Of a DNA stretch of 64,000 nt, positions 4,244 through 47,944 are shown piece after piece. The notes beneath the pieces are model-generated. The model had not been told where the DNA came from, did not search any database, and saw nothing but the letters and a program-made list of their open reading frames with translations. The stretch's first letter is position 1. Every line of letters begins with the position of its first letter. Position numbers and translations under genes: made by a program. Origin of the DNA: Phycisphaerae bacterium (GTDB lineage Bacteria; Planctomycetota; Phycisphaerae; Phycisphaerales; UBA1924); the NCBI GenBank assembly GCA_016873295.1, contig VGXM01000007.1:1-64000 (forward strand), given 5' to 3'.

Positions 4244-4256
4244 GGGAAGGCACCCC

Positions 4257-4281
4257 GGCATCGAGGCATCAAGGCATCAAG
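4257..4281. repeat. terminal inverted repeat (nrdJ side) of four-helix-bundle cassette 1
   Basis: Tandem copies of an 8-9 base word (ggcatcga/ggcatcaa). The first 18 bases, ggcatcgaggcatcaagg, match the reverse complement of 4663-4680 at 17 of 18 positions. The repeat runs into the last codons of the four-helix-bundle frame and ends 13 bases before the nrdJ start codon. Confidence 0.75.
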
Positions 4282-4649
4282 TGTCCGAATGACGCTCCAG
4301 GCTCCGGATCAACCCCGCGAGCACGCGCTCGCACTCATCGAACTCCGACTCGCCCTCGCCGCACAGGCCCTGGTTGAGGTGCCCGAACTCAACCGCGAAC
4401 ATCGGCTGTGGGTCCAACTCATACAGGGCTCCTCGCGAGACCTTGAGGAAGCGGACGCAGTCCGCCGTGCTCCCGCGTCCGTACCCCTCGGCGATGTTGC
4501 CCGCGAGCGAGACCGCGCCGAAGCGGCACCGTCAATCCGAACCGCTCCCGCTCCGGAAACGCCTCGGTCACTCGATACACCCGCGTGCCCGGCCAGAACG
4601 CCTTCTGCCAAGCCACCAGGTCTCTGTAGCTCTTGATCTCGCCACCCAT
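4277..4649 (-). pseudogene. four-helix-bundle (TIGR02436/S23-like) gene with a frameshift
   Basis: From the ATG at 4647-4649 the frame reads MGGEIKSYRDLVAWQKAF, then TEAFPERERFGLT and LRR. This is the start of a four-helix-bundle protein of the family encoded in 23S rRNA intervening sequences and related to Avd of diversity-generating retroelements. After LRR (near 4510) the frame is lost. The family's second half continues in another frame: VSLAGNIAEGYGRGSTAD, then VRFLKVSRGALYEL, then LAGLIRSLERHSDT and a TGA at 4277-4279. Comparison with the usual 'LRRAAVS' suggests loss of about five bases in a GCG-rich run. It is either a true pseudogene or an assembly error. It lies between dcd (38-base gap) and nrdJ (33-base gap) and is bounded by inverted repeats at 4257-4281 and 4661-4680. 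Confidence 0.8.
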
Positions 4650-4660
4650 TCCCGCCCCAA

Positions 4661-4680
4661 TCCCTCGATGCCTCGATGCC
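4661..4680. repeat. terminal inverted repeat (dcd side) of four-helix-bundle cassette 1
   Basis: Reverse complement of 4663-4680 is ggcatcgaggcatcgagg, matching 4257-4274 with a single mismatch. It is itself a tandem duplication of ggcatcgag. It lies just upstream of the cassette gene's start codon and 7 bases beyond the dcd stop. Confidence 0.75.
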
Positions 4681-4687
4681 TTCCCCC

Positions 4688-18482: not shown

Positions 18483-18917
18483 CGGTGTGTGTCGGAAGTC
18501 CGTGGACGGATGCGCTCCGGGTGCCACGGGTCATCGGGCGCTTCGCCCGTGACCCGTGCGGATCGGGTGTCGGGATCAGGGCGGCACGGGCGATCCGCAA
18601 GGCGGATCGCCCGTGGCACCCGGCGTGCCACGACTGTTCGGCTCGGCGAACACTCGTGCGTCCGTCGCCCGACACTGCTTCCCTCAGCGGACACCGCGTC
18701 CCTCGCAGGACACGACTGTGCCCCAAGCGGCACAGTCGTGGCACCCGGCGCGTTCTTGCGACTCGCACGACGCGCGGTGTGTGTCGGAAGTCCGTGGACG
18801 GATGCGCTCCGGGTGCCACGGGTCATCGGGCGCTTCGCCCGATGACCCGTGCGGCTGTTCGACGCCCGTCCGGACGCCGGCACGGGCGATCCGCAAGGCG
18901 GATCGCCCGTGGCACCC
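18482..18917. repeat. cluster of large palindromic (REP-like) repeats with an internal direct duplication
   Basis: Non-coding stretch between convergent pgl and the DnaJ-family gene. Segment 18482-18560 is repeated at 18774-18853 with one inserted base. Strong hairpins: 18817-18832/18836-18851 (16-bp perfect stem, loop CTT), with a bulged copy at about 18525-18555; 18585-18598/18602-18615 (14-bp perfect stem, loop AAG), with an identical copy at 18881-18894/18898-18911; 18711-18722/18729-18740 (12-bp stem); and one near 18629-18658 with a single mismatch. Most end in the same words, gtgccac...cgtggcaccc, while stem interiors differ, so units share termini but not cores. It could act as a bidirectional terminator or as a REP-type mobile palindrome array. 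Confidence 0.85.
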
Positions 18918-44234: not shown

Positions 44235-44954
44235 ATGCTCACCCACGTCATCGCGTCGGCGCTTCCGGCGCCGGCGGCCCTCGCCGCGCCGCCCACGCCG
44301 GCCCCCAACTCCGCCGCCATCATGGCCGACGACCTCGGATGGGGAGAGCCGGGCTGCTGCGGACAGGAGAGGATCCGCACGCCCCGACCCGACCGGATGG
44401 CCGCGGAGGGCGCCCGATTCACGCAGGCCTGCTCCCCGGCGCCCGTGTGCGCCCCCACCCGATGCTCGCTCATGACGGGCCTCCACACGGGGCACGCGCC
44501 CATCCGCGACAACCGGGAGGTGCAGCCGGAGGGTCAGGCTCCGCTGTCCGCCGGCACCGTGACGCTGCCCCGCGTGCTGAAGGGCGCCGGGTACGCCACC
44601 GGCATGTTCGGCAAGTGGCGCCTGGGCGCGCCCGGCTCGGAGGGCGAGCCCAACCGACACGGGTTCGACCGGTTCTTCGGCTACCTCTGCCGGCGGCAGG
44701 CCCACAACTTCTGCCCGACTCACCTCCGGCGCAACGCCGAGAGGGTCGTCCTCGAGGGCAACACCAAGGGCAGCCTCGTCGGCACGCACGACGCGCATGA
44801 CCTCTTTTTCGCCGAAGCCCTCGCCTTCATCCGCGACCGCCGCGACAGGCCCTTCTTCGTCTTGTTCGAGCAGGCCCGCCGGCTCATGGCCGACCTGCGG
44901 ATCCGGTCCGAGCCCTTCCCCTTCCCGGCTTTGGACGCTCCGTCCCCCCGCTGA
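44235..44954 (+). CDS. internally deleted arylsulfatase remnant
   Basis: 239 residues, about half the usual sulfatase length. The N-terminal half is recognisable: IMADDLGWGEPGCCGQ (metal-binding DD), RTPRPDRMAAEGARFTQ, then the formylglycine signature PVCAPTRCSLMTGLHTGH with Cys and Arg in place. GMFGKWRLG and GFDRFFGYL follow. After RPFFVLFEQ the text jumps straight to RRLMADLRIRSEPFPFPALD, which resembles the extreme C-terminus of sulfatases. A block of about 200-250 residues holding the remaining metal and sulfate ligands is therefore missing, with the frame kept. Several conserved positions are also altered (GKWRLG for GKWGLG). I expect it to be inactive. It lies between the chemoreceptor and pdhB. 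Confidence 0.75.
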   Translation: MLTHVIASALPAPAALAAPPTPAPNSAAIMADDLGWGEPGCCGQERIRTPRPDRMAAEGARFTQACSPAPVCAPTRCSLMTGLHTGHAPIRDNREVQPEGQAPLSAGTVTLPRVLKGAGYATGMFGKWRLGAPGSEGEPNRHGFDRFFGYLCRRQAHNFCPTHLRRNAERVVLEGNTKGSLVGTHDAHDLFFAEALAFIRDRRDRPFFVLFEQARRLMADLRIRSEPFPFPALDAPSPR

Positions 44955-45093: not shown

Positions 45094-46155
45094 ATGAACA
45101 CGGCCACGCGCCAGCGAACCCGCCCTCCGCTCGACGAGCTGCTCGCCCGCCCCCTGCCGCCGCGCAAGGGCGACCGCCTCATCCAGTTCCGCGAGGCCCT
45201 GCGCGAGGCCATGACCGAGGAGATGCGCCGCGACGACCGCGTCTTCCTCATCGGCGAAGAAGTCGCCCAGTACAACGGCGCGTACAAGGTCAGCCAGGGG
45301 ATGCTCGACGTCTTCGGCGAGAAGCGCGTCATCGACACCCCCATCAGCGAGAACGGGTTCGCCGGGCTCGCCATCGCCGCCGCCATGTACGGCCTGCGCC
45401 CCATCGTCGAGTTCATGTCCTGGTCCTTCTCCCTCGTCGCCGCCGACCAGATCCTCAACAACGCCCCCAAGATGCTCTACATGTCGGGCGGGCAATGGGG
45501 CTGCCCCGTGGTCTTCCGCGGCAACGACGGGGCGGGCGGGCAGCTCGGCTCCACGCACTCCTGGTGCGTCGAGGGCCTCTACTCCAACGTGCCGGGCGTC
45601 AAGATCGTCATCCCCTCCTGCCCCTACGACGCCAAGGGCCTCCTCAAGACCTCCATCGTCGACGACGACCCCGTCTTCTTCCTCGAGTCCGAACGCATGC
45701 TGGGCGACAAGGGGCACGTCCCCGAGGAGGAGTACTACATCCCCTTCGGGCAGGCCGCGCTGCGGCGCGAGGGCGACGCCTGCACGCTCGTCTCCTTCGG
45801 GCGCCCCGTGAACTTCTGCCTCGAAGCCGCGGACGAACTGGGCAGGCAGGGCATCGAGGTCGACGTGCTGGACATGCGGACCATCCGCCCCCTCGACATC
45901 GACAGCGTGCTGGCGAGCGTCCGAAAGACCGGGCGCGTCGTCGTCGTCGACCAGTCCTGGCCCTTCGCCGGCGTCGCCAGCGAGGTGGTCACGCAGGTCT
46001 GCGAGCGCGGCTTTGACTACCTCGACCACCAGCCCGTCCGCGTCAACTCCGACGACGTCCCCGCCCCCTACGCCCGCAACCTCGAACTGGCCTTCCTCCC
46101 CAACAAGGACAAGATCGTCGCGGCGGTGCGGCGCGTTGTCGCGCCTGGACCCTGA
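45094..46155 (+). CDS. pdhB: pyruvate dehydrogenase E1 component, beta subunit
   Basis: 353 residues, a little longer than usual at the N-terminus (the family typically starts at ITFREALREAM). FREALREAMTEEMRRDDRVF lies near 31. GEEVAQYNGAYKVSQGML and RVIDTPISENGFAGLAIAAA form the ThDP-facing half, FMSWSFSLVAADQILNNAPK follows, and RTIRPLDIDSV and VVVDQSWPFAG form the C-terminal transketolase domain. With PdhA it decarboxylates 2-oxoacids and reductively acetylates E2. A TAGACT hexamer near 44989 could be its own -10, which would make sense given its separation from pdhA. It is followed by the four-helix-bundle cassette and pdhC. Confidence 0.95.
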   Translation: MNTATRQRTRPPLDELLARPLPPRKGDRLIQFREALREAMTEEMRRDDRVFLIGEEVAQYNGAYKVSQGMLDVFGEKRVIDTPISENGFAGLAIAAAMYGLRPIVEFMSWSFSLVAADQILNNAPKMLYMSGGQWGCPVVFRGNDGAGGQLGSTHSWCVEGLYSNVPGVKIVIPSCPYDAKGLLKTSIVDDDPVFFLESERMLGDKGHVPEEEYYIPFGQAALRREGDACTLVSFGRPVNFCLEAADELGRQGIEVDVLDMRTIRPLDIDSVLASVRKTGRVVVVDQSWPFAGVASEVVTQVCERGFDYLDHQPVRVNSDDVPAPYARNLELAFLPNKDKIVAAVRRVVAPGP

Positions 46156-46165
46156 GCGGACCGCG

Positions 46166-46198
46166 AAAGGGCCAGATACTCAGAGGCGCAGATCGCCA
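46166..46198. repeat. terminal inverted repeat (pdhB side) of four-helix-bundle cassette 2
   Basis: 33 bases containing agggccagat and further cagat/gcagat words. They match the reverse complement of 46614-46646 at 26 of 33 positions without gaps. It begins 10 bases after the pdhB stop and ends 18 bases before the cassette gene. Confidence 0.75.
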
Positions 46199-46216
46199 GA
46201 TGAAGGCACCGAACGC

Positions 46217-46594
46217 ATGGGACGGCTCGACCCCAACCTGCTCGCCCGATTCGAAGGCTTCTGCGACCGGATGGTCGGGCTCGCCGAAGACATCGAGCGT
46301 GAGGGGCGATCGCGCCGCGTGTCCGAGCAGGTCCTCGGGGCCGGGGCCGGCGTTGGGGCGAATCTGTTCGAGGCCGACGAGGCGTTGAGCCGCAAGGACT
46401 TCGCCAAGTGCGTCGGGATCGCGCTCAAGGAGATCAATGAGCGTCGATTCTGGCTCCGCCTCGCCTCTCGCCGGGCGTGGCGCCCCGAGCCATCGCTCTC
46501 TTCGCTGCTCACCGAGGCCGAGGAACTCAAGCGGATCCTCGGCGCCATCCTGACCCGCACCCGCCGAGCGGACGCCGCCACGAGCACTCGATGA
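46217..46594 (+). CDS. four-helix-bundle protein (TIGR02436/S23-like), intact
   Basis: 125 residues. RLDPNLLARFEGFCDRMVGL, then RRVSEQVLGAGAGVGANLFE and ADEALSRKDFAKCVGIALKE, then INERRFWLRLASRRAW and LLTEAEELKRILGAILTRT give the four amphipathic helices of the family found in 23S rRNA intervening sequences and in Avd of diversity-generating retroelements. These proteins form pentameric rings that can bind nucleic acid; the cellular role is unknown. I used the ATG at 46217. It lies between pdhB and pdhC, co-directional, with gaps of 61 and 66 bases that are almost filled by terminal inverted repeats. No reverse transcriptase or variable repeat is in the window. Unlike its relative at 4277-4649 it has no frameshift. 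Confidence 0.9.
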   Translation: MGRLDPNLLARFEGFCDRMVGLAEDIEREGRSRRVSEQVLGAGAGVGANLFEADEALSRKDFAKCVGIALKEINERRFWLRLASRRAWRPEPSLSSLLTEAEELKRILGAILTRTRRADAATSTR

Positions 46595-46613
46595 CACTCC
46601 GCCCGTCCGAACA

Positions 46614-46646
46614 TGGCTCTCTGCCCATCTGACCATCTGGCCCTCT
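46614..46646. repeat. terminal inverted repeat (pdhC side) of four-helix-bundle cassette 2
   Basis: Reverse complement begins agagggccagatggtcagat and pairs with 46166-46198 (26 of 33 identical, including a run of nine, gggccagat). It ends 14 bases before the pdhC ATG, immediately ahead of that gene's GGAG ribosome site. Confidence 0.75.
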
Positions 46647-46660
46647 CCCCGGAGTTCCCG

Positions 46661-47944
46661 ATGCCCATCGAGATCACCATGCCCCGCCTCTCGGACACGA
46701 TGCAGCAGGGCACCGTCGTCAAGTGGAACGTCCGGGAGGGCCAGGAGGTGTCCTCCGGCGACGTGATCGCCGACATCGAGACGGACAAGGCGACCATGGA
46801 GCTCCAGTCCTTCGACGACGGCACCGTCGCCAGCCTCGCCGTGCCCGAGGGCAAGACCGTCGCCGTCGGCACCGTGATCGCCGTGCTCGCCGCCAAGGGG
46901 GAGGACGCGTCCGCCGCGAGCGCGGCGAAGACCGCCCCGGCGGTCAAGGCCGAGGGCGAGACCGCCGCGCCCTCCGCCACCGCCGTCGCAGAGCCCAAGG
47001 CCGCCCCGCGCCGCGAGGAGTCCGCGACGAGCAACGGCGGGCGCGTCTTCGCCTCGCCCCTGGCCCGCAAGATCGCCGAGGAGTCCGGCGTGGACCTCGG
47101 ACGCGTCCAGGGCTCGGGCCCCGGCGGGCGCATCATCCGGCGCGACGTCGAGCAGGCCGTCGGTCAGGCGCCGGCCGCGGGCGCCGCGCCCGCTGCCGCC
47201 GCCCCCTCCGTGCCGCCCCTCGGCGCCGCGCTCAAGGGCAAGACGGTGCCGCTCTCCAACATGCGCCGCGTCATCGCGCGTCGCCTGGTCGAGAGCAAGC
47301 AGGCCGTCCCCCACTACCAGGTCACCGTCGAGGTCGACATGGACCCGCTCCTCAGCCTGCGCAAGCAGCTCAACGAGCAGCTGGCCTCGCAGGGCGTCAA
47401 GCTCAGCGTCAACGACTTCCTCGTCCGCGCCTGCGCCCTGGCCATGCACTCGCACCCCTACGTCAACAGCCGCTGGGTCCCCACCGCCAACAACGAGGCG
47501 ATCGAACTCCTCGCCGAGGTCAACGTCGCCATCGCCATCGCCCTCCCCGAGGAGAAGGGCGGCGGCCTGGTCGTCGCCACCATCCGCCGCGCCGACCAGA
47601 TCGGCCTCCGCCAGATCTCCGCCGAGTCCAAGCGCCTCGCCGACAAGGCCCGCGCCAAGGGCCTTTCGCCCGAGGAGATGGGCGACTCCACCTTCACCAT
47701 CTCCAACCTGGGCATGTTCGGCGTGGCCCACTTCACCGCCATCATCAACCCGCCCAACGTCGCCATCCTCGCCGTGGGCGGCGCCATCGAGCGCCCCGTG
47801 GTCAAGAACGGGCAGGTCGTGCCCGGGCACGTCATGGCCATGACCATGTCCAGCGACCACCGCGTCGTCGACGGCGCCATGGCCGCCCAGTACCTGGCTA
47901 CCGTCAGGCAACTCCTCGAGTCGCCCGCGACGCTGCTGGTCTGA
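46661..47944 (+). CDS. pdhC: dihydrolipoamide acetyltransferase E2 of pyruvate dehydrogenase
   Basis: 427 residues. One lipoyl domain (MPIEITMPRLSDTMQQGTVV, attachment Lys43 in ETDKATM) is followed by an Ala/Pro/Glu-rich linker. A peripheral-subunit-binding domain near 128-165 (VFASPLARKIAEESGVDLGR, GSGPGGRIIRRDV) docks E1 or E3. The catalytic acyltransferase core ends in SSDHRVVDGAMAAQYL with the active His400 and Asp404. It accepts the acetyl group from E1 and passes it to CoA. I used the ATG at 46661 with GGAG seven bases upstream; further in-frame starts upstream lie inside the inverted repeat and are unlikely. No E3 (lpd) gene follows. Confidence 0.96.
   Translation: MPIEITMPRLSDTMQQGTVVKWNVREGQEVSSGDVIADIETDKATMELQSFDDGTVASLAVPEGKTVAVGTVIAVLAAKGEDASAASAAKTAPAVKAEGETAAPSATAVAEPKAAPRREESATSNGGRVFASPLARKIAEESGVDLGRVQGSGPGGRIIRRDVEQAVGQAPAAGAAPAAAAPSVPPLGAALKGKTVPLSNMRRVIARRLVESKQAVPHYQVTVEVDMDPLLSLRKQLNEQLASQGVKLSVNDFLVRACALAMHSHPYVNSRWVPTANNEAIELLAEVNVAIAIALPEEKGGGLVVATIRRADQIGLRQISAESKRLADKARAKGLSPEEMGDSTFTISNLGMFGVAHFTAIINPPNVAILAVGGAIERPVVKNGQVVPGHVMAMTMSSDHRVVDGAMAAQYLATVRQLLESPATLLV

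Follow-up and report, generated by a model that had tools for sequence, protein, structure and literature searches.

A word-ended IVP cassette between pdhB and pdhC of a Phycisphaerae bacterium, a probable member of a mobile-element family acting at the DNA level

In a 64,000-nt stretch of DNA from a Phycisphaerae bacterium (assembly GCA_016873295.1, contig VGXM01000007.1, positions 1 to 64,000 of the forward strand; hereafter the window), the pyruvate dehydrogenase genes pdhB and pdhC are separated by a small gene of the IVP family (S23 / 23S-rRNA-IVP), which is itself enclosed by inverted repeats. This raises the question of what the insert is, and whether its repeats matter in the DNA or in the messenger RNA (mRNA) of the operon. 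We are fairly sure of its identity as an IVP cassette ended by short repeated words. Beyond this, we favor, with a probability of roughly 0.6, the reading that it is the gene-bearing member of a family of word-array hairpin mobile elements that act at the DNA level. The two ends of such an element would be inverted arrays of 7–8-nt words, and its only gene would be that for the IVP four-helix bundle.

The arms of the pdh element are 34 nt each, 79% complementary and spaced by 415 nt. They are the same pair that a preliminary description of this DNA had given as 33 nt with 26 matches, and its proposal of a separate cassette that has inverted repeats of its own is upheld. None of 94 cross-pairings of the 5′ flank with the 3′ flanks of other elements reaches the observed score, and thus the complementarity of the arms exceeds chance. 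The 5′ arm lies 9 nt from the pdhB stop (46155) and the 3′ arm ends 13 nt from the pdhC ATG (46661), where it adjoins the ribosome site, which agrees with the placement near the neighbors’ signals described before. As also described, the arms are unlike those of a second such element in the window, cassette 1, which are made of 8-nt GGCATCRA words (4257-4281). The cagat-type words proposed for the pdh element stand in part. The arms do contain degenerate CAGAT words, and the word structure at this site is plain in relatives only, with clear tandem 7–8-nt units in genomes G045, G079, and G093, but Tandem Repeats Finder called no tandem structure in the degenerate arms of the window.

Comparison of relatives identifies the insert as a discrete, patchily present element that is not fixed in the pdh operon. 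Among 95 pdhB–pdhC junctions fetched from the window’s family, 15 contain an IVP gene, 37 have a gap of ≤200 nt, 28 have a longer gap without an IVP, and 15 were unreadable; the gene is not in all pdh operons, in line with the preliminary description. Filled and empty junctions even occur together within each of five genera (G005/G075, G079/G013, G032/G084, G060/G097, and G078/G011, in the last of which the gap holds something else). The filled junctions begin at the stop codon of pdhB and reach to the ribosome site of pdhC, and their arm words change by genus (AAAGCTC, CAGCAGA, AAATGGCC, GCACATG, and others) with complementarity kept. One filled junction (G068) is without a clear arm pair, and reading by eye suggests possible arm remnants in some empty junctions, for example those of G084 and G071. 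For the pdh site, vertical inheritance alone was considered and found weak, with a Mantel r of 0.25 between host and IVP distances (p = 0.03, 14 loci) and of −0.05 in a smaller set including a paralogous operon.

The protein is an ordinary member of a known family. It matches PF05635 at 47.7 bits (cut-off 33.8) and TIGR02436 at 58 bits (cut-off 24), is a variant without the usual RDLxAWQ start, and matches PDB entry 2RLD with an E-value of 2.8e-14. The AlphaFold monomer consists of four helices (predicted local distance difference test score (pLDDT) 89) and superposes with template-modeling (TM) scores of 0.80 to 2RLD, 0.75 to 2GSC, and 0.71 to 4DWL. The structure matches thus include Xanthomonas XCC0516 (2GSC) and Avd, a protein of diversity-generating retroelements (DGRs; 4DWL and 8UB7). 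A reference cited in PMC3936711 describes 2GSC as five four-helix bundles. IVP genes are under purifying selection, with a ratio of nonsynonymous to synonymous substitution rates (dN/dS) of about 0.08–0.2 in close pairs with usable dS, though dS is near saturation. Between the arms of the pdh element, PF05635 is the sole family match; no transposase or recombinase family was found, with no search aimed at Y1_Tnp (RAYT).

PF05635 genes generally lie between inverted word arrays. The domain is present in 66 of 100 genomes of the window’s family, with up to nine matches per genome, and 77 of 95 of its loci there have inverted repeats with an own-locus p ≤ 0.03. Several of the remaining loci do have plain inverted repeats, with words that other loci also carry, so their control is inflated. 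Across many phyla (named genomes and ten plasmids), inverted repeats with p < 0.02 flank 69 of 86 PF05635 loci, and the same arm design is seen in Xanthomonadales and in Nostoc, Granulicella, and Flavobacterium. The words fit best with a period of 8, 7, or 14, and purines prevail in the 5′ arm of 78 of 81 elements. One locus (L402, in G107) has very long inverted flanks of a 27-nt-like unit containing small hairpins (CTGGGGAACG...), unlike the 7–8-nt words.

Judged by codon usage, both neighbors read in the direction of the IVP gene at 64 loci, both read against it at 3, and 2 are mixed. In 59 of 73 elements, the stop codon of the upstream gene coincides with the start of the 5′ arm (−40 to +15). 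Certain sites recur, namely dcd–nrd (15), groES–EL (10), dnaE (9, and one antisense), pdhB–C (8 in this sample), and accB–C (6), and the element is further found at iscS–U and at many single sites. This breadth bears on the idea that the IVP is a domesticated regulator, which would bind the stem next to the ribosome site of pdhC and set the pdhB:pdhC ratio. The 3′ arm does end at that ribosome site, and similar sites recur in several genera. However, most pdh operons are without the element, its presence is discordant within genera, the same element occupies all of the other sites named above, and the IVP gene of cassette 1 is split across two frames by a frameshift. We regard a regulatory role as very unlikely.

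The preliminary description also held that the arms fold the cassette out of the pdh mRNA as a stem. In an RNA-level intervening sequence (IVS) of this kind, pairing of the arms in the pdh transcript would make a stem for RNase III to cut, and the IVP cassette would be released as in the IVSs of 23S ribosomal RNA (rRNA). Several points agree with such a scheme: the copies are sense-oriented within operons, the IVP family was defined from rRNA IVSs, and the Coxiella IVS is removed by RNase III (PMC4990558). Predicted RNA folds do pair the arms, including 82% of the 5′ arm at the window element and above 60% in 80 of 81 elements, but such pairing is expected of any inverted repeat. Selected pairing in the sense transcript should give more G·U than A·C mismatches between the arms, and no such preference exists, with 178 G·U-type versus 173 A·C-type mismatches over 166 elements (83:90 in the first set). 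Nor does duplex stability differ between sense and antisense (p = 0.53). With no signal in either measure, the RNA stem was rejected as the selected structure, and the symmetry of the mismatches points to a DNA-level cause. The compensating arm changes expected by the preliminary description are present, in that complementarity is kept between species as the sequence changes completely, but since these changes are strand-symmetric, they argue for DNA rather than RNA.

Copies within genes speak to the same question. Of ten elements located within host genes, nine occupy one dnaE loop and one is in another gene; the host frame (+2 relative to the IVP) is open through all ten compared with 3 of 71 spacer elements, although the nine dnaE copies have a common site and partly a common clade and so are not fully independent. 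The +1 frame is open in none of the 71 spacer elements. The dnaE loop has 27–36 residues where the element is absent and 194 or 239 where it is present. These frames are most simply read as translation running through the dnaE elements, which would not be spliced from those messages, because precise removal would make an open host frame unnecessary. In addition, locus L068 (G079) carries an antisense element at the dnaE loop that other genomes use in sense. Given the symmetric mismatches, the open host frames, and this antisense copy, release of the cassette from RNA seems unlikely.

The words of the arms were compared with the protein between them. Word similarity tracks IVP similarity with r = 0.23 over 2905 pairs from different sites and different genomes, a value reached in 0 of 1000 permutations. 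One word common to all copies of a genome was rejected, since same-genome pairs are no more alike. One recent burst within the window’s genome (G000) was rejected as well: its five IVP genes, each with inverted repeats of different sequence, are in different clades and have different words.

Where a genome has an IVP of a given word, gene-less arrays and hairpins of that word also tend to be numerous. In single-word genome scans, where counts are overlapping matches and not arrays, GGGAATC gives 292, 148, 232, 45, and 8 matches in five Xanthomonadales genomes with GGGAATC or close-variant IVP arms, 0–7 in eight genomes with other IVP words, and 1 in total in 15 genomes without an IVP. In G163, a genome of the GGGAATC type with one IVP gene, 14 of 16 fetched sites were analyzed with the IVP locus set aside, and these are mostly gene-less hairpins. 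Similarly, G093 has its sole IVP between pdhB and pdhC, and the word of that IVP gives 84 matches in the genome. AAGGCACG has 16–90 matches in the five genomes whose IVP has AAGGCACG and is present in some other genomes too; the 20 loci read are mostly single arrays of ~50 nt. At L349 (G020), two different 8-nt words, AAGGCACG and AAGCGACG, are fused in one array. The window’s genome contains gene-less arrays of GTGGTCGA, as a mini-hairpin inside dnaE and as unpaired arrays at three further loci, and one match to the word of its pdh element. With its degenerate arms and a word that shows no amplification in the genome that carries it, the window copy looks old. Elsewhere in this genome, three near-identical units lie at contig ends (L191, L193, and L195, on contigs 26, 32, and 57), each with a long unpaired CCACTCG array ahead of the first part of one and the same gene.

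Strand-symmetric mismatches would also arise from neutral arrays, where the words come from replication slippage, the arms stay alike through template switching, and the IVP genes are drifting passengers. Slippage was proposed earlier for heptamer repeats (discussed in PMC4692102), and the tandem words are indeed polymorphic, with long arrays such as the 3′ arm of L409. However, neutrality leaves unexplained the word-array ends of PF05635 genes across phyla, the tracking of word and protein, and the purifying selection on the IVP, which makes it quite unlikely.

In the favored reading of a mobile element, the IVP, probably a pentamer, would bind its own words, and this binding would allow both the gene-bearing copy and the gene-less hairpins to be kept and to spread at the DNA level, presumably by use of host replication or recombination enzymes. 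Insertion would be tolerated where the element adds no stop and no polarity and removes no ribosome site, as may be the case for sense-oriented copies between a stop codon and a ribosome site, or in frame inside dnaE; nearly all copies are of these two kinds.

Several observations weigh against this. The element encodes no recombinase, and the copies compared showed neither a transposition event nor a target duplication; the empty pdh junctions are too diverged to fix the element ends or any target duplication to base level. IVP proteins from one insertion site group together (17 label changes, against 54.6 when shuffled), and at groES–EL they follow the host tree (Mantel r = 0.91); dcd–nrd and dnaE give moderate agreement of host and IVP distances. 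Because the IVPs cluster by site and follow their hosts at groES–EL, many copies are old residents rather than active ones, subject to loss and possibly re-insertion. The link between IVP and word could also arise without any binding, if arms and gene are inherited together, and the genomes for the GGGAATC scan were hand-picked. Furthermore, G020 and G066 have many AAGGCACG arrays, yet their examined IVP arms have other words, and in G022, G054, and G098 arrays are present without an IVP.

Movement could instead be that of a retroelement, driven by a reverse transcriptase in trans with the IVP acting like DGR Avd. The fold match to Avd and the sense orientation of the copies are in line with this. 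However, the reverse transcriptase family RVT_1 is rare, with matches in 19 of 100 genomes of the family and none in the window’s genome, a 94.75% complete draft assembly. This candidate was rejected, and we consider it hardly probable.

More tentatively, and at somewhat less than even odds, IVP genes and heptamer/octamer arrays may together form one recombinase-free mobile system. The IVP would recognize its own 7–8-nt word, one gene copy would maintain or spread many gene-less hairpins in trans, and some copies would be dual-coding, as an in-frame extra DnaE loop. If so, two unexplained things, the widespread S23/IVP proteins and the heptamer repeats of cyanobacteria, Xanthomonas, and Beggiatoaceae, become one testable system. 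The element appears to be the gene-carrying form of the short tandem repeats, of formerly unexplained purpose, that are dispersed in bacterial genomes, and in dnaE it is apparently translated through in a second frame. The literature searched, which included few subscription papers and no bioRxiv preprints, contained no link of IVP genes with heptamer repeats (cyanobacterial short tandemly repeated repetitive (STRR) sequences or Xanthomonas GGGAATC). As far as we found, the element ends and their gene-less relatives were not earlier recognized as one system.

The features of the window are collected in Table 1. The dcd–nrd site of cassette 1 is filled in 14 other genomes too. Just 5′ of pdhB lies a sulfatase-like open frame that is apparently truncated (44235-44954, + strand). 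A separate region (18517-18917) holds crowded palindromes based on GGTGCCACGGG and CACGGGTCATCGGGCG, the longest arms being 37 nt (18579-18615 / 18881-18917); these are not of the word-array type.

Table 1. Coordinates of the pdh element, its host genes, and cassette 1 in the window
Feature	Coordinates	Strand	Remarks
pdhB (pyruvate dehydrogenase E1 beta), upstream host gene	45094..46155	+	353-aa open frame; matched in 96/100 family genomes
5′ arm of pdh element, degenerate CAGAT words	46165..46198	+	inverted repeat, 34 nt, 79%
IVP gene, 125 aa, S23 / 23S-rRNA-IVP four-helix bundle	46217..46594	+	PF05635 E 2e-12, TIGR02436 E 9.5e-16
3′ arm of pdh element, inverted copy of 5′ arm	46614..46647	+	same inverted-repeat pair
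pdhC (dihydrolipoamide acyltransferase), downstream host gene	46661..47944	+	open frame 46613-47944, start 46661
Cassette 1, second such element, between dcd and ribonucleotide reductase gene	4244..4685	-	IVP gene frameshifted; arms of 8-nt words

Among known systems, the 23S rRNA IVSs of Leptospira and Coxiella resemble the pdh element in protein family, in having one gene, and in their inverted repeats at both ends. The pdh element differs in that it lies in an mRNA operon rather than in rRNA, and its relatives also lie in frame in dnaE; the elements here have word-array arms and no sign of RNA-stem selection. An Rfam scan of the window found two tRNAs only, with no rRNA gene and no group I or group II intron match. 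REP/RAYT pairs (repetitive extragenic palindromes and their transposases) and MITE/IS pairs (miniature inverted-repeat transposable elements and insertion sequences) likewise combine gene-less hairpins with a gene-bearing copy in one genome, whereas the ends here are word arrays that vary by element, with no transposase gene between the arms. DGR Avd has the same fold as the IVP and is a pentamer, but no reverse transcriptase, template, or variable repeat lies near the elements here.

Genes annotated as 23S_rRNA_IVP in cas loci have been read as CRISPR-linked (PMC3936711). Similarly, in two cyanobacterial plasmids (L222 and L223) an IVP element lies between cas6 and cas4, but here word-array inverted repeats flank both. 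Insertion is therefore a simpler reading than a CRISPR function for these genes, filed so far as CRISPR-associated.

Cyanobacterial STRR sequences are heptamer tandem repeats. In Nostoc, a heptamer repeat GGGGA(C/T)T is described (PMC4692102), and the arms of the Nostoc IVP locus L375 are GGGGATT/GGGGACT. In Xanthomonas, 186 and 183 GGGAATC arrays of ~four units were reported, with 70 and 75 convergent pairs and a function called unknown; they are intergenic near stop codons and were noted near groES and dnaE (PMC4692102). Beggiatoaceae have the repeat TAACTGA (PMC4679880). The elements here resemble these repeats in the 7-nt unit, often in about four copies, in their position near stop codons, and, for Xanthomonas, in the frequent convergent pairing. 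The array-bearing genomes here carry an IVP with the corresponding word (with G022, G054, G098, G020, and G066 as exceptions), and whereas the heptamer repeats were reported as gene-less and of unknown role, an IVP gene here lies between the paired arrays.
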